Shown here: positions 4,601-27,537 of the stretch, one piece after another | Layout: every line of letters begins with the position of its first letter | Numbering within the stretch: position 1 is the stretch's first letter | IMG/VR virus record: IMGVR_UViG_3300010430_000170 | Span: 1 to 40,529 of that record | Reading direction: 5' to 3' (one strand) | From: a virus | DNA length: 40,529 bases | The notes under the pieces: generated by a model | What the model was told of the DNA's origin: nothing | The model's input: only the letters and a program-made list of their open reading frames with translations | The model's database searches: none | Made by a program: the position numbers and the translations under genes

Positions 4601-4984
4601 TTATCCCTTATTTTTATTAGCAAAGGTTCTTGTTAAGTTGACGAGCTGTTTACGTGCAGCCGGGTCTTTAATCTGTTCGAACTCTCGAACGAGGACGCGG
4701 GCGTCAGAGCTGTCATAGAGCACATCTTCTGCGGTTTCATCGTTCTGGATCCCGTCGAAGAAGTAGCTCGCCGGCACCTTCAGGGTTTTACTTACCCTGT
4801 ATAGGCGTGACGCTGAGACTCGGTTCGTCCCGTTCTCGTACTTCTGCACTTGCTGATACGTGATCCCCAGAGCGCTTGCCAGCTTCTCCTGGCTCACTCC
4901 CGCCAGCATGCGGCGTTGCCTGATTCTCTGGCCTACGTGTATGTCGATTCGACTGTCTGGCTCTGTTTTCGTAATTTTGGGCAT
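4601..4984 (-). CDS. XRE/Cro-CI family transcriptional regulator, alphaproteobacterial type
   Basis: 127-aa regulator with a standard HTH_3 domain at residues about 16-72: VGQRIRQRR, then GVSQEKLASALGITYQQVQ, then KYENGTNRVSASRLYRVSKTL. The DIHVG start and QQVQKYENG/NRVSASRL wording is typical of a large alphaproteobacterial family, the best host clue here. The C-terminal tail is helical and charged, with no protease-type (LexA/CI) domain. As the only classical repressor-like protein in the leftward operon, it is the first candidate to bind the GTTCGTAACG sites at 10.4-11.8 kb, but that is inference. TAA to next start is a 4-base gap. Confidence 0.88.
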   Translation of the reverse strand: MPKITKTEPDSRIDIHVGQRIRQRRMLAGVSQEKLASALGITYQQVQKYENGTNRVSASRLYRVSKTLKVPASYFFDGIQNDETAEDVLYDSSDARVLVREFEQIKDPAARKQLVNLTRTFANKNKG

Positions 4985-6885: not shown

Positions 6886-7139
6886 AGGGCTACCTCCTGA
6901 TTGTGCTCGTCGTATACAGTCTTACCTGCCATGAAGTGGTCGTGACATAGGTCATCGAATAGGAACGTCCCGACCTTTTCGTTTGCGTAGCGTAGTGCGC
7001 GGCGTTCGTCGATAGCCTCTTGCCCTAGCATCAGCGGCGTTGTGAGTTCGTCCGCCTTGTCTTGGATCTGTATGCCCTGCCCGCCCATCACGCTGATGAC
7101 TGCGTACTTGTTGCTTTCTGTAATTACTGTTTGTTGCAT
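6882..7139 (-). CDS. hypothetical protein
   Basis: 85-aa protein not recognised. It shows a hydrophobic beta-like start (NKYAVISVMGGQGIQIQD) followed by a charged helix (GQEAIDERRALRYANEKVG) and FLFDDLCHDHF. ATGA overlap with the downstream gene and TAATG overlap with the upstream one place it firmly in the operon. Confidence 0.65.
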   Translation of the reverse strand: MQQTVITESNKYAVISVMGGQGIQIQDKADELTTPLMLGQEAIDERRALRYANEKVGTFLFDDLCHDHFMAGKTVYDEHNQEVAL

Positions 7140-7543
7140 TAGTCTGTTACCTTTCTTATTAGGGTTGGTGCTTCATCGTCCTCATACCAGTGGTACCCAA
7201 TGACGTCGTCTTTAATTGCGTCTACGTACGGTGCGACCCAATCGAAAAAATGTACGTGTTCGTCATCGTAGGCTTTCAAGTCACAACGCATGAATACGCT
7301 TGTTGTCGTGCTTACAGAACTGTGCTCAAAACTCCTAATCACCTTCGGGTGGTGGCAGTCCGACGCGCAACGACCGATCCCTTCCCAACGCAAGCACCTG
7401 AAAAGTTCGTGCCTAGGCGCTTGGAAGTCCTCGGGCAGGTCTTGCCCTGTAAAGAAGTATCTTAGCGCGGCTTCCGTGTTCTGGTCTTTCTGCTTTAAAA
7501 ACACATCACCCTTAACCATGATTTCTGTATGCATGCCCATCAT
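7139..7543 (-). CDS. hypothetical protein
   Basis: 134-aa acidic protein not recognised. It has several Cys and His (LFRCLRWEGIGRCASDCHH, near residues 46-64) that could bind a metal, but the spacing fits no standard finger. The C-terminus is rich in aromatic and acidic residues (HVHFFDWVAPYVDAIKDD; YHWYEDDEAP). Two adjacent ATGs occur at the start; either could be used behind GAGGGG. Confidence 0.65.
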   Translation of the reverse strand: MMGMHTEIMVKGDVFLKQKDQNTEAALRYFFTGQDLPEDFQAPRHELFRCLRWEGIGRCASDCHHPKVIRSFEHSSVSTTTSVFMRCDLKAYDDEHVHFFDWVAPYVDAIKDDVIGYHWYEDDEAPTLIRKVTD

Positions 7544-7975: not shown

Positions 7976-8310
7976 GATACGAGCCTTTCAATTGCTTCGG
8001 ATATTGTTGTTTCGCTGCCAGACAGTTCCAAGTCGTTCGCCGCCGCGTACGCTTCAAAACCCGCCGTAATTTCTTCAGACGCTACGGCGCTTGGGTGAAG
8101 GATCGCGAGCGGGTCGCCCTTCGCCGTGCCTTGCCATATCCAGCCGTCACCCTCGAAGCGTTCGGCTTTCAAGCCCGCGTTACCGAGTAGCGCCGTTACA
8201 TACTCTTCGGCGGTTACACGGTTTTCATGCCCGTCAAAGTTGATGCCGTTGACCTCTAATAGGTTTTTTATATGTTCATTTTCGCAAGTTACGTTTAGTA
8301 CAATAATCAT
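7972..8310 (-). CDS. hypothetical protein
   Basis: 112-aa acidic protein not recognised. The N-terminus MIIVLNVTCENEHIKNLLE looks like a beta strand plus helix; the rest is mixed alpha/beta, with GDGWIWQG near residue 57. Its start forms a TAATG overlap with the 32-aa ORF upstream, inside the 27-bp repeat described at 8308-8334. Confidence 0.65.
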   Translation of the reverse strand: MIIVLNVTCENEHIKNLLEVNGINFDGHENRVTAEEYVTALLGNAGLKAERFEGDGWIWQGTAKGDPLAILHPSAVASEEITAGFEAYAAANDLELSGSETTISEAIERLVS

Positions 8311-8334
8311 TACTCAATCCCCCATGTTTGCCCG
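8308..8334. repeat. 27-bp direct repeat, copy 1 (gene-junction repeat)
   Basis: Plus-strand 8308-8334 equals 8962-8988 except for one base (8317 versus 8971). In both places it spans a TAATG stop-start junction and encodes GQTWG(I/L)E-stop on the minus strand. The copies are 654 bp apart and flank the genes at 8396-8662 and 8662-8964, so recombination between them could delete or insert that pair. Confidence 0.9.
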
Positions 8335-8408
8335 CGGGCAATAAATCCAAGTAAAGCAAGGCAAGGAACGCCTGCGCCTATCAGTACAGTCGTTTTTATT
8401 GTGTGCAT
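8310..8408 (-). CDS. 32-aa single-TM peptide
   Basis: Short ORF found by reading the gap: MHTIKTTVLIGAGVPCLALL, then GFIARGQTWGIE. Residues 7-24 form a plausible membrane segment. It overlaps the upstream gene by 13 bases and the downstream one by TAATG. Its last seven residues come from the 27-bp repeat shared with the end of the gene at 8964-9545, so it may be a membrane segment fused by recombination to a borrowed terminus rather than an old gene. Confidence 0.5.
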   Translation of the reverse strand: MHTIKTTVLIGAGVPCLALLGFIARGQTWGIE

Positions 8409-10378: not shown

Positions 10379-10581
10379 AGGTGTTTGCTTTCTTTAGTTA
10401 AGGTTTGCATAGGTTCGTAACGGATTTTAAACAGTTCCGCGCTCTGCACTGCGTTGTTGCGTGCTCTGATTTCCGCGCACTTGCGGGCGTCGAACTCGCT
10501 TTGATAGTAGTCATATTGCACGAGAACCCCTTTATGTGTCTGCTTGCGGGTCACCGTCATGAAATTAAATTTACGGCTCAT
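10375..10581 (-). CDS. hypothetical small protein
   Basis: 68-aa basic protein not recognised (MSRKFNFMTVTRKQTHKGV, then LVQYDYYQSEFDARKCAEIR). One copy of the 10-bp GTTCGTAACG motif (10413-10422) lies inside its 3' coding part, where it encodes RYEP. ATGA overlaps at both ends show it is translated with its neighbours. Confidence 0.65.
   Translation of the reverse strand: MSRKFNFMTVTRKQTHKGVLVQYDYYQSEFDARKCAEIRARNNAVQSAELFKIRYEPMQTLTKESKHL
10413..10422 (+). repeat. GTTCGTAACG motif, intragenic copy
   Basis: Perfect copy of the motif that is repeated in the control region, here within the coding sequence of the gene at 10375-10581, about 450 bp downstream of the leftward promoter. It could act as a roadblock or silencing site, or be chance. 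Confidence 0.6.
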
Positions 10582-10670
10582 TTGTTTAATACCTTTACTG
10601 CTACGAATAGAATTCGGATTATAGTTTCACCGCTGGCGCTATCGTCCTGAAGTACCAGCGCGTATACCAC
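10578..10670 (-). CDS. 30-aa peptide, GTG start (tentative)
   Basis: Short frame filling the gap: GTG then VYALVLQDDSASGETIIRIL, ending FVAVKVLNK, with a TGA that overlaps the next ATG (ATGA). AGGGG lies about 11 bases before the GTG, longer than usual. The coupling with the downstream gene is the main support. The C-terminal stretch is hydrophobic. Confidence 0.4.
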   Translation of the reverse strand: MVYALVLQDDSASGETIIRILFVAVKVLNK

Positions 10671-10671
10671 C

Positions 10672-10845
10672 TTAATAAGTCCCCTGTGTTGTGATTAATC
10701 CAATTACGCTGTAAACCACCAGTGCGGTAAAGCCTAGAACATATGCAGCGGTGGCGATTAGCTCGGCGCGTCTGTGCCGCATGTTACGCTCGGCAAGTAC
10801 TGCGGCGCGCCTTTCGTTCGACGGATTGTATTTGTATTCGTTCAT
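10672..10845 (-). CDS. 57-aa membrane peptide, first gene of the leftward operon
   Basis: Found by reading the gap: MNEYKYNPSNERRAAVLAER, then a basic NMRHRRAELI, then about 20 hydrophobic residues (ATAAYVLGFTALVVYSVIGL), ending ITTQGTY. AAGGAA lies 8 bases before the ATG. It is the first ORF downstream of the perfect sigma70 promoter at 10877-10905. One transmembrane helix with the basic side likely cytoplasmic. First-gene position suggests a very early function, such as membrane-level takeover or exclusion; that is inference. Confidence 0.72.
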   Translation of the reverse strand: MNEYKYNPSNERRAAVLAERNMRHRRAELIATAAYVLGFTALVVYSVIGLITTQGTY

Positions 10846-10876
10846 GTCTTCTATTCCTTATTTATTAACTATATTT

Positions 10877-10905
10877 ATTATAGGGTTCGTAACGGCTAAT
10901 GTCAA
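10877..10905 (-). promoter_or_regulatory. leftward early sigma70 promoter with operator in the spacer
   Basis: On the minus strand: TTGACA (10900-10905), exactly 17 bases, then TATAAT (10877-10882), a perfect consensus match in both hexamers. The spacer contains a perfect CGTTACGAAC (10885-10894). A protein on this site would block RNA polymerase, as in CI- or LacI-type operators. The promoter would drive the whole leftward operon (10845 down to 3307). Confidence 0.9.
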
Positions 10906-10938
10906 TATTTATTTACTATTTATTTACTATTTATTTAT
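10906..10938. repeat. three tandem AT-rich 11-mers
   Basis: Two exact copies of TATTTATTTAC (10906-10916, 10917-10927) and a third ending in T (10928-10938). The stretch is AT only except for the C in each unit and touches the -35 box of the leftward promoter. An AT-rich repeat beside iteron-like sites is the usual build of a DNA unwinding element at a replication origin. Confidence 0.8.
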
Positions 10939-11035
10939 GTTTTTCGGCATTAATTGAGAAACTGGCGGGGTTCGTAACGTCCGAACGTTCGGGGTTCGTA
11001 ACGGTTCGTAACGCTTCCGAAAATTTCCATAGAGC

Positions 11036-11100
11036 TTCGGGAAGCGAGTTCGTAACGCCCGAACAGCTTCGGAAGCGTTCGGGAAGCGAGTTCGTAACGC
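11036..11100 (+). repeat. 23-bp perfect direct repeat around two operator copies
   Basis: Positions 11036-11058 and 11078-11100 are identical, with a period of 42 bp (four helical turns); each ends with GTTCGTAACGC. Between and across them lies an inverted repeat, CCCGAAC at 11058-11064 and GTTCGGG at 11077-11083. The spacing places both operator copies on the same face of the helix. Confidence 0.85.
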
Positions 11101-11312
11101 GTGGAACACATTCTGCTTAATATTTAGGCATTTAATCCGTTACGAACTTTTAGGGATTCCTCTTTAGTTTCAAGAGTTTCCAAGATTTCTGGGCATCGGA
11201 CACGGCTGGGCAGGCACGTTGTTCTGCTTTAAGTATCAGTGGGTTAAGGATGTTTCACGGAAGTATGCCCGCTCAAGTCTCCTATTCCACCTCGCTGATA
11301 CCAGTGTCTGTG

Positions 11313-11360
11313 CGTTACGAACGGACGTCGCTCAGTACCAGAGTTCGTACCGTTACGAAC
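11313..11360. repeat. operator-like motif copies inside the long inverted repeat
   Basis: CGTTACGAAC is perfect at 11313-11322 and 11351-11360. The second is preceded by GTTCGTAC at 11343, making an 18-bp imperfect palindrome (11343-11360). Confidence 0.8.
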
Positions 11361-11370
11361 CGCTACATAC

Positions 11371-11418
11371 CTCTCTATTCTCCTCTCCCCAACCCAGTAT
11401 AGAGAGGAGAGTATAGAG
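11371..11418 (+). other. nested pyrimidine/purine hairpin
   Basis: Bases 11371-11387 pair with 11402-11418 over 17 positions with one mismatch and one G.U; the loop is 14 bases (11388-11401). The left arm is almost pure pyrimidine and the right arm purine. There is no T-run after it, so it is not a standard terminator. It sits within the long inverted repeat at 11167-11507. Confidence 0.7.
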
Positions 11419-11553
11419 AAAGGGGCAGTTTTATTTGTGATTTCAACAGCTTAAGCGTGCCTGCCCAGCCGTGTCCGGTGTCCGGAATATCTGGAAGCTA
11501 CTGAAATCATTACGCTTTTAAAAAAGTTCGTATCAAATCGCGTTTTCCGCCAA

Positions 11554-11573
11554 GTTCGTAACGGTTCGTAACG
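11554..11573 (+). repeat. tandem pair of operator-like motifs
   Basis: Two perfect abutting copies of GTTCGTAACG (11554 and 11564), the same head-to-tail arrangement as at 10994-11013. A degraded copy, GTTCGTATCA, lies at 11526. Confidence 0.8.
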
Positions 11574-11619
11574 TTCCGAAACGCCTTGCCACATCGCGGG
11601 ACATCACGTAAAACATGAG

Positions 11620-11747
11620 CGAAGCGAATTCGTTTCGAGCGAGACGGGCAGGGGGTCTACGAAAGGCACTTTCGGGGGCGCCCGGGGCGGCCGCTGGGTG
11701 GGGTCACCCCCGTATACCGCGAGCCACTTTTTGGAGCCGTTACGAAC
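11620..11747. other. GC-rich palindrome-dense stretch, non-coding
   Basis: Starts with an 18-bp near-palindrome centred on GAATTC (11620-11637). It then has GAAAG/CTTTC, GGGCGCCC, GCGGCCGC and GGGGTCACCCC palindromes in succession. An open frame from 11615 to 11836 has biased, repetitive residues and no ribosome binding site, so I treat the stretch as non-coding. Its place shortly upstream of the terminase genes would suit a packaging or replication site, but nothing shows that directly. A reverse-orientation operator copy lies at 11738-11747. Confidence 0.4.
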
Positions 11748-11773
11748 TCCGGACAGCCCCGACCGTTACGAAC
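11738..11773 (-). repeat. operator-like motif pair upstream of the rightward promoter
   Basis: Perfect CGTTACGAAC at 11738-11747 and 11764-11773. The second ends 11 bases before the -35 box of the promoter at 11785, a position from which a bound protein could repress or activate. Confidence 0.8.
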
Positions 11774-11849: not shown

Positions 11850-12050
11850 ATGGAACCGATTTACGAACCGAGCGATATTATGCAGTATTTTAAATGGGAG
11901 CACCTCCCGGAGCGCCTGCAGGCGATCAGTAAGCCGTTCGGAGAATTAGCCGAGCGACTAGATAGAGACCTGAAACCTGGCGCTGAGAAGAGTGTGGCCT
12001 TACGTAAGCTCCTTGAGTCAAAAGACGCTGCCGTACGTGCGGCACTTTAG
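11850..12050 (+). CDS. 66-aa helical protein, possible Acb2/Tad1-hairpin-like
   Basis: MEPIYEPSDIMQYFKWEHLP, then ERLQAISKPFGELAERL, then EKSVALRKLLESKDAAVRAA. This belongs to a widespread phage family (YFxYxHLPxxLQ; SxPFxxLA; ALRKLLEAKDAAVRA) predicted to fold as a helical hairpin. From memory its pattern is close to the Acb2/Tad1 hairpin (DUF7681-type) proteins, whose characterised members sequester cyclic-nucleotide or gcADPR signals of CBASS and Thoeris defence; I cannot confirm membership. AAAGGA sits 8 bases before the ATG. It is a single-gene unit with its own promoter and operators, upstream of the late genes, as expected for an early anti-host protein. Confidence 0.7.
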   Translation: MEPIYEPSDIMQYFKWEHLPERLQAISKPFGELAERLDRDLKPGAEKSVALRKLLESKDAAVRAAL

Positions 12051-12053
12051 TAC

Positions 12054-12082
12054 TTGACACGATGGTCTGTAAGGACTATAGT
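12054..12082 (+). promoter_or_regulatory. rightward sigma70 promoter for the RNA region
   Basis: TTGACA (12054-12059), 17-base spacer, TATAGT (12077-12082): eleven of twelve consensus bases. It begins four bases after the stop of the 66-aa gene and has no 10-bp operator nearby, so it may be constitutive. Transcription would start near 12089 and run through the tRNA to the terminator at 12742-12766. Confidence 0.88.
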
Positions 12083-12088
12083 ACAGAC

Positions 12089-12247
12089 TGGTGCTTCCAC
12101 TGACTCCCATGTCGGGTGAAGTACTACCTGGTGTTAGCCGACCACACGGGCTACAGAAATTAGATGACGGTCATACTGTAAATAACCGAAGAGATCTTCG
12201 CCGGGGGTGTACGAGTCTAGACACCAACGCCTCCGACCGAGGATACA
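12089..12247 (+). ncRNA. leader part of the structured non-coding transcript
   Basis: No credible gene: frames here are short and lack ribosome binding sites. Hairpins can be drawn: gtgcttccac with gtgaagtac around 12091-12123, TAGCC with GGCTA around 12135-12153, and GGTGT with ACACC around 12206-12225. I did not recognise the RNA; no tRNA T-loop pattern occurs in this part. Confidence 0.4.
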
Positions 12248-12357
12248 GAATTTTTAAAGAGGGTGCTCCTAAGCGTCTGATATAAGCGCAGGAGGGACTA
12301 GATTCAGACAATTCTAGATGATATGCTCGCCAATCCTGCCACCCTCTTTAAGAATTT
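12248..12357 (+). ncRNA. cloverleaf-like RNA with an 18-bp closing helix
   Basis: 12248-12265 pairs with 12340-12357 without interruption (18 bp, two G.U). Inside are a D-arm-like hairpin (CTCCT 12266-12270 with AGGAG 12290-12294, plus GCG/CGC) and an anticodon-arm-like hairpin (CTAGA 12298-12302 with TCTAG 12313-12317, 10-base loop). There is no T-arm and no CCA, so it is not a tRNA. The overall form is a multibranch tRNA-like fold 110 bases long. Function unknown. Confidence 0.55.
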
Positions 12358-12360
12358 TAT

Positions 12361-12419
12361 ATGGGGCTCCTGGAGGAGGTAGTGCGCATAGTGGGGTTCG
12401 ATCCCCTAACCCTGTACCA
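12361..12419 (+). other. 59-nt tRNA-like element with T-arm and CCA
   Basis: The 3' part is exactly tRNA-like: T-stem TGGGG (12386 region), T-loop TTCGATC, T-stem CCCTA, acceptor strand ACCCTGT, A, CCA ending at 12419. No normal 5' half exists. The best local partner for the acceptor is ATGGGGC at 12361-12367 (three G-C, one A-U, two G.U, one mismatch), leaving only about 24 bases between, enough for one hairpin (CTCC/GGAG). Alternatively AGAGGGT at 12258 pairs with six of seven acceptor bases, making the whole 12258-12419 one interrupted tRNA. It may be a minimal tRNA mimic or a tRNA relic. Confidence 0.45.
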
Positions 12420-12424
12420 ATTAA

Positions 12425-12500
12425 CGCAGAGTGGAGCAGTGGTCAGCTCGTTTGGTTCATACCCAGAAGGCCGGTGGTTCGAATCCGCCCTCTGCAACCA
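12425..12500 (+). tRNA. initiator-type tRNA-Met (CAU), CCA encoded
   Basis: A complete 76-nt cloverleaf: acceptor CGCAGAG/CTCTGCA, TG, D-stem GAGC/GCTC, anticodon stem TTTGG/CCAGA with loop TTCATAC, variable AGGCC, T-stem GGTGG/CCGCC with loop TTCGAAT, then A and CCA. Initiator marks are the unpaired C1xA72 at the acceptor end and A11-U24 in the D-stem. The anticodon stem has two of the three usual G-C pairs (G30-C40, G31-C39; the third position is U-A). It would be charged with Met, formylated and used for initiation. It begins five bases after the preceding CCA. Confidence 0.93.
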
Positions 12501-12741
12501 GGTTCGTTCTAGCCCGCCCGGTCTCTACGGCGACTGGGTACGCTAAAACAACACATGCAGTTAGTCCTGGGGGATCTGCCTAAACTCAAGCCCGGGGACA
12601 GCTTACGCAGGGACCAAGAGTCGCGAGTACACGTAGCTACTGGAAAACGCGGTGCCCGATCGCCACGCGCAACGATCACGGTAAGGAAGTGCAAATCTTC
12701 GACCCCTGCACCACTTTCAGCAGAGATGAACTGGAAACGGG
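12501..12741 (+). ncRNA. structured downstream part of the non-coding transcript
   Basis: No gene is supported. A 7-bp hairpin lies at 12517-12538 (CCCGGTC/GACTGGG). GTGCA/TGCAC pairs at 12689-12711 around a TTCGACC sequence followed by TGCACCA, which resembles a tRNA 3' end, and GCAGGGA at 12607 could pair with CCCCTGC at 12703-12709. The distance (107 nt) and the missing T-stem speak against a functional tRNA, so I annotate only structured RNA of unknown role, possibly containing a tRNA relic. Confidence 0.35.
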
Positions 12742-12766
12742 CCCCTTGCAATCGCAGGGGGTTTTT
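12742..12766 (+). terminator. Rho-independent terminator of the RNA region
   Basis: CCCCTTGC (12742-12749), loop AATC, GCAGGGGG (12754-12761), then five T. The 8-bp stem has one G.U pair. It ends the transcript from 12054 just before the terminase operon. Confidence 0.88.
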
Positions 12767-12780: not shown

Positions 12781-13140
12781 ATGAGCAATGTACCGATGCC
12801 ACCGAACCCGTTAGCGCCGGAGCCGTCAGAGGTTACCGATTACGCAGAGATGACGGAAGACGATGTGAGGGAGATGGCCCGAAAGCTATCGCCTCGTATT
12901 TTGAACGAACTCTCGAACATAGCGATGGGTAGAGTAAAAGACGCGTCACCGTCCGTGCGCGTAGCAGCAGCGAAAGAAATTCTAGATCGTGGCCTAGGTA
13001 AGGCGGCTCAGTTTGTAGAGGTGTCCACGTCCATGTCTCAGATTGTCTCTCAGCTGCAGCAGATCCAGACAGTCGAATCGACAGCTGAAGAGGTTGTAGA
13101 GGTTCTACCTGCACCGAAACCTGGAGGAGGACTATTTTAA
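12781..13140 (+). CDS. terS: terminase small subunit
   Basis: 119-aa protein directly before the large terminase, in the usual place and size. Proline-rich N-terminus, acidic helix (EMTEDDVREMARKLSPRIL), then a helical stretch typical of many phage TerS proteins (DASPSVRVAAAKEILDRGLG) and a C-terminal Gln-rich helix. It recognises the packaging site on phage DNA and loads TerL. The upstream sequence has no Shine-Dalgarno and the -10 box ends six bases before the ATG, so leaderless initiation is likely unless a longer transcript reads through. Its stop overlaps the TerL start (TAATG). Confidence 0.75.
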   Translation: MSNVPMPPNPLAPEPSEVTDYAEMTEDDVREMARKLSPRILNELSNIAMGRVKDASPSVRVAAAKEILDRGLGKAAQFVEVSTSMSQIVSQLQQIQTVESTAEEVVEVLPAPKPGGGLF

Positions 13141-14684
13141 TGGCACAGGACGCGAACCAGATGATTGCTGACTTTCTGCACTCCTGCAGAAACGACCCCT
13201 TAAAATACGTACTGGGCGCGTTCCCATGGAATACGGAGCCGTCGATTCAGGTAGCGGAACTCCACCCGAAGTATCGAGAGCGCTTTCCGAACGTAAAGTA
13301 TGGCCCGGATCTGTGGCAATGTGAATATCTCGAACAGCTCGGTGAACAGATTAAAGCAAACGAATTTAACGGCCGGGACGCAGTGAAACCGATCCGGTTC
13401 TCCACCGTCTCAGGTCACGGTATTGGTAAGTCCACGATCAGCGCGTGGCTCGTAAAGTTTATTTTAGATACACGCCCGATGTCTGTCGGGACCGTCACAG
13501 CGAACACAGCGCCCCAGCTGCGTACGAAGACATGGGCTGAGGTCGGTAAGTGGCACAACATGAGTTTGACGAAAGACTGGTTTAAATACTCGAACTCCAC
13601 CAGCGTAATGTCGCTCGTCCACAGTGACCCGGAACTGAAAGAGAAATGGAAGTGTTTCGCACAGACCTGTGACCCTACGAACTCTGAGGCGTTTGCTGGA
13701 CAGCACAGTAGCGCGACGTCGTTCTATATCTTTGACGAGGCCTCTAAGATCGACCAGAAACTATTCGAAGTACGCGAGGGTGGCCTGATCGGTGGAGAAC
13801 CGATGGTATTCGACTTCGGTAACGGTACGAGAAACACCGGCCGCTTCTACGAAAACTGCGTCGGGAAGTACTCGGATTTGTATACAGTATTCCAGATTGA
13901 TTCACGCCAGGCGCAGCGTGTAAATAAAGCTAAGGTCGAAGAGGACATTAAAGTCTACGGGGCGGACAGTGACTACGTCCGCGTACGTTGGAGAGGCCTA
14001 TTCCCAGCTCAGTCGACAAACCAGTTTATAAGCGCCTCTGCCGTGCGAGAAGCAAGCGAGCGAGAGGCTATTACAGATCACCGAACCGATCCGCTCATTA
14101 TCGGTGTTGACGTGGCCCGCAGTATGTCGGGGGACGAGACGATCATTTATCCTCGCATCGGTTATGATTGTCGCTCATTCGCCCCTCGACGCTACAGGGG
14201 ACTCAATTCGATTCAGATTGCGGATAAGGTCTCTGACATGGTCAGGGAATTCCAACACATCAATAAACGCTGCTCAGCGATCTTTGTGGATATGGGCGGT
14301 GGCTATGGTGGCGGTGTGTATGACCAGCTGCAGAAAATGGGCCTCAACCCGACAGGCGTCCACCCGGGCCGTACTGCGTTTAACGACGTTACGTACTCTC
14401 TCCGTATCGACGAGTGCTGGGGCGGGGTTAAAGATAATATCCAGCACCTACTGTTGCCGCACGGCACCACTAAGGACGGAGCTGAGCTTTTCGACCAGTT
14501 GACACAGCGCGAATATGGGCATACACTGAAAGAACAGGTACGGCTGGAGCCGAAAGAACAGTTTGCAGATCGAATTGGCCAGTCACCCGACATCACAGAT
14601 GCTTTGGCAATGACGTTTGGTAGACCGGTACACGATGACGCTAGCGACGGGCCCGCCTTCGTATACATAGAAGGAGATTTTTAA
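13140..14684 (+). CDS. terL: terminase large subunit
   Basis: 514-aa DNA-packaging motor and nuclease. ATPase: Walker A GHGIGKS near residues 92-98, Walker B FYIFDEAS near 194-201. RNase H-like nuclease: first Asp in IIGVDVARS near 322, second in AIFVDMGGGYGGG near 382, third in DITDALAM near 484. Length and motif order are normal. It docks on the portal at 14963-16615. GGAGGAGG lies 8 bases before the ATG. Confidence 0.95.
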   Translation: MAQDANQMIADFLHSCRNDPLKYVLGAFPWNTEPSIQVAELHPKYRERFPNVKYGPDLWQCEYLEQLGEQIKANEFNGRDAVKPIRFSTVSGHGIGKSTISAWLVKFILDTRPMSVGTVTANTAPQLRTKTWAEVGKWHNMSLTKDWFKYSNSTSVMSLVHSDPELKEKWKCFAQTCDPTNSEAFAGQHSSATSFYIFDEASKIDQKLFEVREGGLIGGEPMVFDFGNGTRNTGRFYENCVGKYSDLYTVFQIDSRQAQRVNKAKVEEDIKVYGADSDYVRVRWRGLFPAQSTNQFISASAVREASEREAITDHRTDPLIIGVDVARSMSGDETIIYPRIGYDCRSFAPRRYRGLNSIQIADKVSDMVREFQHINKRCSAIFVDMGGGYGGGVYDQLQKMGLNPTGVHPGRTAFNDVTYSLRIDECWGGVKDNIQHLLLPHGTTKDGAELFDQLTQREYGHTLKEQVRLEPKEQFADRIGQSPDITDALAMTFGRPVHDDASDGPAFVYIEGDF

Positions 14685-23893: not shown

Positions 23894-25711
23894 ATGGCGA
23901 CTATCCCACTATCAAGCGGCCCTCAAGTAAGACCAGGAGCAAGCCCTCAAACCGTTTCTCAAGTCACAGGTACTGAGTCGGCGGTTACGGGCGCTCGTCA
24001 GCTTACTCAGATCGGCGGCTTAGTCGAAGAGCTGGCTAAACAGGAAGCACAGGCTATCGAAACACGCGACCGCGTGCAGATGGAAACCGACCTTGCTAAT
24101 TTCGAAGTAGAGTCCCTTCAGCGCTCTGCCCAGTTAGCGATCGAGGGCACCGGCGAAGAGGGCCACGTCAAAGGTGTGATGAACGACTTTGAAGAGCGTA
24201 AGCTTACGTTCCTAGAGACCCAACCAGAATACCTGCGGTCCGAAGCTCAGCTTAAACTATTGCAGCCGCAGACGGTAGTGGCGAAGAACGCCTTAGCGAC
24301 TCAGAACCGCCAATACCAACGAGAGTTAACGACTAACTCTGCAGACTTCCGCAATAACGTGGTAAACACCGTGCGTTTCGGTACCACGAGCGAAGAGATC
24401 GCTATGCAAAAGGTTGAAGCCTTCGTGAACGAGTTACCTGAAGGCTTGCAAGAAGCCGAGCTCGAAGCAGGTCGAGAAGCAGTACGTCGCGCCACGCTTG
24501 CCCGTCAAGTAGAAGACGACCCGACCGCTGCGATTGAAGCGGTCCGAGCGGGGTCTTACAATGATGTAGAGCCAGGTTTTGTAGAAGCCCGTTTTGGTGA
24601 AGCGAACCGCGCGCTTTCAAGTCAAAAGACGGAGAGCGAGCGTCTCGTAAAGCAGGCCTACGACAACAGGTGGACTGACCCAGTCCTAGCCGCGCAGTCG
24701 TCCTTGGCCGCTGAAGGCGTAGAGAACCCTACCCCCGATGACTTACAGCGTGCTCAGGCAGACCTGAACATCCCTAAGTCGCGCCGTTCAGTACTCACGA
24801 AGAACGCCGCGCAGGAGATCGCTAACCAGCTGGCAAGCGTGACTACCGTCGAGGAGTTTTTCATACGCCGGGCAGAGCTTACGGCCGAAGCAGAGCAGTT
24901 AGGTGCAACACCAAGTAAAGTCGCGGCAGACGTACGTAAACTTGCCGATATGCCGATGGCGCTATCCGTAGTGATGGACGCGGGCACTCCTCAACCGGGA
25001 GAGTCTCGAGAAGCCGCTCGCCTGCGTGTAGACCCTACGTTTATGGCTAACGCCCTTCAGATCGTACAGAACCCGAAAGCTGGCGAAGACGCACGCCGTA
25101 ATATCGCTAGAACCTATGGCCAAGCAGAAGTTCAAGAGGTCGAAGCCGCGGTGTGGGACGAGTACGGTGACCAGATCCGCGCCATGCACCGCTCAGGCGT
25201 GCCGGTGGAAGACATTAGCGACTTTCAGCAAACGATGGTAGACATCGCGTCTATCACGTACGACGAGCACCGTACCGTACACAACAGCAAGAGGCGGGCC
25301 CGCAACATGACGGCAGGCTCTATTCGAGGCGGCCATCTAGGCACCACGATTCGCGCTGACGGCAACGATGGGTATATCTTGCCCGACAACATCGCCCTTC
25401 AACTATCTAACCGAGACATGCAGAAAATTCGTATTAACCTGATGCGAGACATTAACGTATTTGTGCCTGAGTCGTTTGCCACTCGAGAATTGGGCGTCCG
25501 AGACCTCGTACATAATAGCGGTTGGACGATGGCAGGCCACGATGCGTTGACGTTACGTAACGCAGGGCAACCCGTGTACCTAGACAACGGCGACGGCACG
25601 ATGTCCCCGATTACCCTCACGTATGACCAGCTATCGGAAGTGGGTAATATCGAAGGTCGAGAAGCCCGAGGTAAAGCAATTGCAGAAATGATCCAAGGTG
25701 AGAGCGAGTAA
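23894..25711 (+). CDS. internal virion protein, large helical
   Basis: 605-aa, highly helical and charged protein (for example IGGLVEELAKQEAQAIETRD near residue 41; many Glu/Arg heptad-like stretches up to about 450). It follows the gp14-like gene, so it corresponds to the T7 gp15 position. It probably forms part of the inner core and trans-envelope channel. No catalytic motif was recognised. It begins one base after the gp14-like stop and shares TAATG with the next gene. Confidence 0.78.
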   Translation: MATIPLSSGPQVRPGASPQTVSQVTGTESAVTGARQLTQIGGLVEELAKQEAQAIETRDRVQMETDLANFEVESLQRSAQLAIEGTGEEGHVKGVMNDFEERKLTFLETQPEYLRSEAQLKLLQPQTVVAKNALATQNRQYQRELTTNSADFRNNVVNTVRFGTTSEEIAMQKVEAFVNELPEGLQEAELEAGREAVRRATLARQVEDDPTAAIEAVRAGSYNDVEPGFVEARFGEANRALSSQKTESERLVKQAYDNRWTDPVLAAQSSLAAEGVENPTPDDLQRAQADLNIPKSRRSVLTKNAAQEIANQLASVTTVEEFFIRRAELTAEAEQLGATPSKVAADVRKLADMPMALSVVMDAGTPQPGESREAARLRVDPTFMANALQIVQNPKAGEDARRNIARTYGQAEVQEVEAAVWDEYGDQIRAMHRSGVPVEDISDFQQTMVDIASITYDEHRTVHNSKRRARNMTAGSIRGGHLGTTIRADGNDGYILPDNIALQLSNRDMQKIRINLMRDINVFVPESFATRELGVRDLVHNSGWTMAGHDALTLRNAGQPVYLDNGDGTMSPITLTYDQLSEVGNIEGREARGKAIAEMIQGESE

Positions 25712-27537
25712 TGTCAATTGGATTTGCGTTTTCTAATGTAGGCCGTAAGGAGAGTTCAGCGGCGGTAGTCCGTCGAGGTACCGAAGTACGCCCCTCAGTA
25801 GGCACCGCGCTGACCAGCGGTTTTTCAGCAGGGTACGGAGGTGAAGGCTCTTTCGTAGAGGACTTGCAGGCATACCAAGTAAACACTCAGTTAGGCCGCG
25901 AAACTACGTTTTTCCAAGAAGCAGCAAACTTTGTGGCTTCACCGTTCACCGACGACCCGATCGAGTCCCCAAAGATCTCACAGGACGAGTATGAGCAGAG
26001 CATGTACTTCCGGGACGACCTTGAGTATAAAGACGGCATGACGGAAGAGGCCGCGCGTATCCGAGCTGAGAACTTCGATGCTCGGCGCCAGAGACAACAA
26101 ATTTTCGACCAGAGTGGCCGCGTAGGCAAAACACTGTATTTCACGTCCGCGCTAGCGGGCGGCATGGCAGACGTTAAAGGCGTAGTTGCCGGGATTGCCG
26201 CCGGTGCTGCAGTCGGGTCCGTCGTGCCGGGGGCGGGAACTGGTGCAGGCGCAGTGACCGGTGGCGGACTTAAAGTCACGCGGGGGGCCATGACGGCCGT
26301 ACGCGCTTCTCGAGCTGCTCGCGTAGCCGGAGTAGTCGCAGGGGAGTCAGCGCTAGCGACGATCCCCTCTGTGGTTTCAGGGGTGCAAAACGAGGCGGCT
26401 CTCGACACTGAGTATGACATCAGCAACGCTTTCCTAGACCTAGGGGCGTCTGCGCTTTTCTCAGTAGGGTTCCACGCAGGTACTCGCGGCCTCTCGAAAG
26501 CGTATGACCGCTTCACCGGCCTGTCTGATAAAGAAGCGGTAGCTAATATGATGGCGACGCAGATTATGGCAGGTGAGCGCATGGACGCGAAAGCGATCAT
26601 GGACATGCAGATGGCTGACCGCGTACAGCGGTTCTCTACAGTCGATCGAGTAGAGACAGCACCTACTGTCAAAAAACGTGCTGACGGCACTCACGAGGCG
26701 TTCTACGCGGATGACGAGGGTGTTATGGCCGGAGTTAGGGGTCGAGGTAAGAGTTTTGAAGAAGCGGTCAGCGACTTAGAGGCGCTCTTTACTACACGCC
26801 TCAATGAGGCCGCAGGGCAACTTGAGTTGAAGCCAGAACGCCTTGAAGCTTTGAAGCAAGCCCAAGACGACCGCGTAGCTGCAGACACGTTCGACGCGGA
26901 TAAATTCATCGAGGATAACGCCGAGAACCTAGGCGTCCCGATCGAGCGTATCCGAGAGACTGAAGCCAAGCTCAAAGACGCGCAGACTCAGTTGAAGCAA
27001 GCGCAAGCGGCGTTCGATGAAAGGCCTACCAGCGCTAAACGTAAAGCAGACCTTTCTAACGCTAAGCGTAAAGAGACTCGCGCTCGCCAAGAAGCTGAGC
27101 AAGTTCGCGAGGAAGCGACGAGCCGTGCAAAGCCGGTAGCAGACCAAGAGCAAGTTAAACTCGATGACCAAGCCAACGCGTCCCATGGTGTGGTTAGGCA
27201 AATGCAATCTGACGAAGCGCTCCCAGCTTTCGAGCGCTACATACGTGACCAGATGGAGAACCCAGTTCTGGCAGACCGTACGACAGACCCGTATTTAGAG
27301 CAGGTAAGCCTTGAAGAGATCACCCAGCAAGCCGCCCTTGCTACGCGAGGTCCACTCGAGCAGGACTTATTCTCCGATGCCGCAAAGGCCCGCTCCGATG
27401 TAGAAACGCAGCTGGAGAACGGGACGATGCTGCCTGAAACGAAGCAAGTTGTGGGCGAAGCGCTTAAAGAGATTGACAACGCTAAGGTACGCTCTGTAGA
27501 GTTAATGAAGTTCTTGAAGTGTAGAGGAGGCAGTTAA
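25711..27537 (+). CDS. internal virion protein with Gly-rich hydrophobic domain
   Basis: 608-aa protein. Residues about 146-190 are a Gly/Ala-rich hydrophobic segment (GVVAGIAAGAAVGSVVPGAG, then TGAGAVTGGG) that could insert in membrane. Residues about 412-475 form a strongly charged coiled coil (ETEAKLKDAQTQLKQAQAAF; KRKETRARQEAEQVREEATS). No transglycosylase motif was seen. The layout fits an ejected protein of the gp15/gp16 type; its coupling (TAATG on both sides) shows it belongs to the ejection cluster. Confidence 0.75.
   Translation: MSIGFAFSNVGRKESSAAVVRRGTEVRPSVGTALTSGFSAGYGGEGSFVEDLQAYQVNTQLGRETTFFQEAANFVASPFTDDPIESPKISQDEYEQSMYFRDDLEYKDGMTEEAARIRAENFDARRQRQQIFDQSGRVGKTLYFTSALAGGMADVKGVVAGIAAGAAVGSVVPGAGTGAGAVTGGGLKVTRGAMTAVRASRAARVAGVVAGESALATIPSVVSGVQNEAALDTEYDISNAFLDLGASALFSVGFHAGTRGLSKAYDRFTGLSDKEAVANMMATQIMAGERMDAKAIMDMQMADRVQRFSTVDRVETAPTVKKRADGTHEAFYADDEGVMAGVRGRGKSFEEAVSDLEALFTTRLNEAAGQLELKPERLEALKQAQDDRVAADTFDADKFIEDNAENLGVPIERIRETEAKLKDAQTQLKQAQAAFDERPTSAKRKADLSNAKRKETRARQEAEQVREEATSRAKPVADQEQVKLDDQANASHGVVRQMQSDEALPAFERYIRDQMENPVLADRTTDPYLEQVSLEEITQQAALATRGPLEQDLFSDAAKARSDVETQLENGTMLPETKQVVGEALKEIDNAKVRSVELMKFLKCRGGS

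Follow-up and report, generated by a model that had tools for sequence, protein, structure and literature searches.

Why phages carry tRNA genes is an old question. The presence of an initiator tRNA is inexplicable by codon supply, and such a gene is therefore a clean case for the proposed replacement of tRNAs destroyed by host defence. VapC toxins cut between the anticodon stem and the anticodon loop (PMC8522696), and in other phage tRNAs the anticodon loop is altered where nucleases cut (van den Berg et al. 2023, PMC10264068). Although the first-pass annotation of the locus described here called initiator tRNAs rare among phage tRNAs, this is an overstatement: two pattern scans of IMG/VR for initiator-type tRNAs returned at least 120 matches each, 90 phage records match the tRNA of our contig, and a single tRNA-fMet gene has been published for phiLM21-like prophages (PMC12429752). 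By sequence comparison, a phage-encoded initiator tRNA is of a kind already known, and what appears to be new here is the combination of a U29-A41 pair with U32 and C38.

An initiator-type tRNA gene upstream of the terminase genes

The window, by which we mean the whole 40,529-base stretch analysed (IMGVR_UViG_3300010430_000170), is a 40.5-kb podovirus-like contig from a virus record. It belongs to an epsilon15/Pseudomonas-AF-like phage with genes for terminase, a head-tail adaptor, the major head protein, tail proteins, DNA polymerase, and primase. ARAGORN and Rfam find a single tRNA in it, a 76-nt gene with encoded CCA at 12425-12500 on the + strand, which ARAGORN calls tRNA-Met(cat) and which the Rfam tRNA model matches with 58.4 bits (E 3e-10), no other family scoring above threshold. 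Throughout the gene, position n in standard tRNA numbering lies at 12424 + n. Read directly, the acceptor arm has a C1xA72 mismatch followed by G2-C71, C3-G70, and A4-U69 and ends in A73 and the encoded CCA, the D stem contains the purine-pyrimidine pair A11-U24, and the cloverleaf is intact with its CAU anticodon at 12458-12460. Both programs and the direct reading thus bear out the intact tRNA with initiator marks that had been proposed, the initiator identity being supported by the marks themselves. Because of C1xA72 and A11-U24, we reject an elongator Met or Ile2(CAU) identity. The formylation determinants besides the 1-72 mismatch comprise A73, G2-C71, C3-G70, and G4-C69 (listed in PMC9976931); three of these four minor determinants are present (A73, G2-C71, and C3-G70), and position 4-69 is A-U in place of G-C. 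Judged from its sequence, the gene very probably encodes a working initiator tRNA. An attP remnant of a host tRNA is unlikely: the gene is complete, encodes CCA, and sits mid-contig between phage genes. The proteins scanned, which cover part of the ORFs, include no integrase.

The gene is housed in a gene-free leader. Directly 5' of this leader is a small gene of unknown function (phrog_1761; 11850-12050, + strand), and downstream of the leader lie the terminase genes, with the small subunit at 12781-13140 (+ strand; a weak match to phrog_2538) and the large subunit at 13140-14684 (+ strand; about 39% identical to Vibrio and Pseudomonas phages). A promoter-like site, TTGACA-17-TATAGT, precedes the tRNA at 12054-12082 (+ strand; a consensus match at 11 of 12 positions), and a terminator-like hairpin, CCCCTTGC-AATC-GCAGGGGG followed by five T, folds after it at 12742-12766 (+ strand). 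A consensus scan for terminators does not list this hairpin, and both elements are putative, as sequence matches.

Upstream of the leader, the decamer GTTCGTAACG occurs in 14 exact copies in both orientations (0.1 expected by chance) within 10413-11773, a stretch that is mostly non-coding, and one copy falls in the spacer of a promoter whose hexamers match the consensus at 12/12 positions (10905-10877, - strand). This cluster is possibly an operator or iteron cluster. The window also encodes a Cro/CI-like HTH protein at 4601-4984. A 51-nt inverted repeat, 80% complementary with arms 237 nt apart, spans 11168-11506, and the nearby segments 11000-11149 (z = -5.0) and 11300-11449 (z = -3.8) fold far better than shuffled sequences. 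In the structural region, two adjacent large genes at 23894-27534 (605 and 608 aa) have no PHROG match.

The anticodon stem

The anticodon stem of the window tRNA is formed by U27-A43, U28.G42, U29-A41, G30-C40, and G31-C39. As first annotated, of the three G-C pairs of an initiator (29-41, 30-40, and 31-39) it keeps two; the replacement lies at the first of them, where U29 (12453) pairs with A41 (12465; + strand). The loss of this pair had been considered notable. As such it is not: 106 of 398 Pseudomonadota genomes match a non-3GC pattern, all of them A29-U41 among the matches listed, so three G-C pairs are not universal and thus not strictly defining, and two of three are ordinary in bacteria. 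What stands out is the form of the replacement, as U29-A41 was found here only in viruses. It occurs in 27 of 173 unique viral sequences among the matches listed, a fraction biased because one of the two scans was restricted to non-3GC forms, and in 0 of 632 bacterial genomes from three phyla (0/398, 0/119, and 0/115). Positive controls, which cover Pseudomonadota and Bacillota and hence two of the three phyla (phylum labels being those of the seed genomes), matched 62 of 100 Pseudomonadota genomes for the 3GC form and 41 of 61 Bacillota genomes for the A38 form.

Such a stem could mean that the modified initiator changes start behaviour, for example through weaker P-site discrimination by U29-A41 together with the altered 32-38 positions, to the benefit of some phage messages. 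In E. coli the three G-C pairs are important for initiation, and a triple mutant with U29-A41, C30-G40, and A31-U39 has no activity (PMC10486304); this favours the idea, as does the absence of U29-A41 from the bacterial genomes searched. However, the window tRNA retains G30-C40 and G31-C39, and the AU/GC/GC arrangement is native to many Pseudomonadota, so that losing one G-C pair need not disturb normal initiation. We consider altered start behaviour quite unlikely.

The leader and the placement of related genes

The tRNA is unchanged in a near-identical contig, and its closest other copy among the matches listed, 89.5% identical, lies on an unrelated contig, L003. The anticodon loop and U29-A41 are identical in the two, and they differ by two compensated pairs (27-43 and 49-65) and by one-sided changes that preserve pairing. 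These differences, in two sequences only, fit a maintained cloverleaf, as selection would leave. They bear on the idea that the gene is a relic or hitchhiker from a tRNA array in decay and now serves no purpose, an idea prompted by tRNA-like fragments on either side of it. Five bases 5' of the gene, at 12393-12419 (+ strand), a tRNA-like 3' end with T arm, acceptor strand, and CCA was recognized by eye; it lacks an Rfam tRNA match and is found by ARAGORN at its loosest setting only, and it is probably the remnant of a second tRNA. A weaker candidate, also seen by eye, is a possible second tRNA remnant at 12607-12713 (+ strand; GCAGGG ... CCCTGCACCA). The terminase relatives in two alignments, which have no tRNA-Met at this place, point in the same direction; in HU1, tRNA-Thr/Asn lies upstream of the terminase. 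A relic is nevertheless very unlikely, given the intact cloverleaf, the compensated changes relative to L003, and the preserved CCA and identity elements. A search for further tRNAs hidden in the leader gave nothing convincing with relaxed ARAGORN thresholds and Rfam E values up to 10.

The leader upstream of the tRNA (12085-12424) is more stably folded than shuffled sequences (z = -2.9), mostly via one long hairpin with 23-nt arms that are 87% complementary (12243-12362, + strand), of which 12247-12360 folds with z = -4.0. The tRNA might accordingly form a domain within a larger, structured RNA of the phage, similar to the tRNAs reported inside the linker of some GOLLD RNAs (PMC12286853), and its L003 relative likewise sits in a very structured stretch (z = -5.75). 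Against this reading, no GOLLD or ROOL covariance-model match appears at E values up to 10, the downstream segment 12501-12740 folds no better than shuffles, and the leader has no homologs in 246 related or tRNA-bearing loci and no match in phages outside the tRNA itself. We regard it as extremely improbable. The L003 stretch, 6990-7500 of that contig, and a second one at 8115-8392 are non-coding and lie around and between phage tRNAs; the former has the tRNA as its sole Rfam match above threshold, and the L003 leader has no homologs in plasmids. The two stretches may represent an undescribed phage RNA.

In the phages inspected, the initiator tRNA is often near the terminase or the early-late junction (DoCa5, Elanor, R6L, LoVEphage, and phiLM21), and in CBW1004C-Prop1 it lies downstream of antiterminator Q. 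Many contigs among the matches listed have no second tRNA within the stretch examined. Of 145 genes close to viral initiator tRNAs, 6 encode the terminase large subunit (phrog_2), a family absent from the 25 listed for 139 distant genes, and a Pfam near-vs-far neighbour scan shows a weak trend. This placement near late genes is at most suggestive of supply for late translation. The initiator-type matches of Xanthomonas phage DoCa5, Elanor, and Erythrobacter phage R6L fall in the gap directly after the terminase gene and are not annotated as tRNA.

The anticodon loop and possible escape from tRNA cleavage

The most unusual feature of the window tRNA, above U29-A41, is C38 with U32. Its anticodon loop, UUCAUAC (12456-12462, + strand), has U32 (12456) and C38 (12462) instead of the C32 and A38 of the bacterial initiator tRNAs listed. 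Among the matches listed, A38 is missing from 27 of the 173 unique initiator-type sequences of viruses (18 C, 7 U, and 2 G), mostly with U32, and from 21 of the 134 in which 1:72 is a true mismatch. Neither the 398 Pseudomonadota nor the 61 Bacillota genomes yielded a non-A38 form (0/459 in total), the viral sample spanning all hosts and the bacterial control for this position two phyla, and about a tenth of the Pseudomonadota genomes matched neither control pattern. Comparing the 134 viral sequences with the 398 genomes by Fisher's test gives p = 8e-14, a value that overstates certainty because the sequences are related, sequences are set against genomes, the controls have gaps, and the two sets cover different host ranges.

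VapC nucleases that target initiator tRNA cut the bond next to position 38, so the change lies at the cut junction, with C38 here and no non-A38 form in the 459 bacterial genomes searched. The replacement of a cleaved host tRNA, one of the roles first suggested for this gene, thereby appears to gain specific support, as position 38 is altered here and in about 16% of the viral sequences among the matches listed. In the sequence of events that we propose, transcription of the leader, upstream of the terminase and structural genes, would yield the tRNA, which host enzymes would process and host MetRS would charge before it is formylated. It would start translation while late genes are made, topping up the initiator pool. 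More tentatively, the U32/C38 loop might reduce VapC-type cleavage and allow initiation to continue if the host triggers the nuclease; the tRNA is likely cut less because, in its loop, the base adjoining the cut bond is not that of the bacterial form. That C38 confers resistance to an initiator-cutting VapC is our guess. For the joint statement, a working initiator that is used in late expression and is also probably less VapC-sensitive, we see even chances.

An alternative account is that the tRNA only raises the initiator dose for late translation, in which case the changes in loop and stem would be tolerated drift and play no part in nuclease escape. The bacterial-type loop CTCATAA is kept in 145 of the 173 viral sequences among the matches listed, and the frequent position of the gene near terminase or late genes is consistent with dose as well. 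Since 84% of the viral initiator tRNAs among the matches listed keep A38, the change is not needed for a general role. However, the same U32/C38 recurs in viruses whose tRNAs have different acceptor and T arms and in none of the 459 bacterial genomes, and we hold dose alone to be a serious but somewhat doubtful explanation. Returning to nuclease escape, a broader form of it is possible, if still short of probable: in many phage lineages, changes at 32/38 (often with 29-41) that are unseen in bacterial chromosomes would confer resistance to anti-phage VapC-type toxins, the window tRNA being one of them. A cut-junction change present in viruses and in none of the bacterial genomes searched yields a single-base prediction that is directly testable.

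With the E. coli-type initiator tRNA(fMet) (metZWV/metY) the window tRNA shares C1xA72, A11-U24, CAU, A73, G30-C40, and G31-C39, and it is 78% identical to what we take to be the E. coli tRNA-fMet sequence. Unlike that type, it has U29-A41 rather than G29-C41, U32/C38 rather than C32/A38, and A4-U69 rather than G4-C69, and its D loop is one base shorter. The phiLM21-like prophages, Pseudomonas phage D3, and Vibrio phages (tRNA-Met matches) likewise carry single or clustered initiator-type tRNAs, often near late genes; within the phage tRNA-fMet set, position 38 is changed in the 27 of 173 noted above among the matches listed, and the window tRNA adds U29-A41. In the phage tRNAs of PMC10264068, too, a base is altered at or beside the site that a host anticodon nuclease cuts. 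Where a Shigella host carries VapC-LT2, however, its phages generally avoid encoding tRNA-fMet (PMC10264068), which would count against nuclease escape, whereas the phage studied here encodes an initiator tRNA that carries the change.
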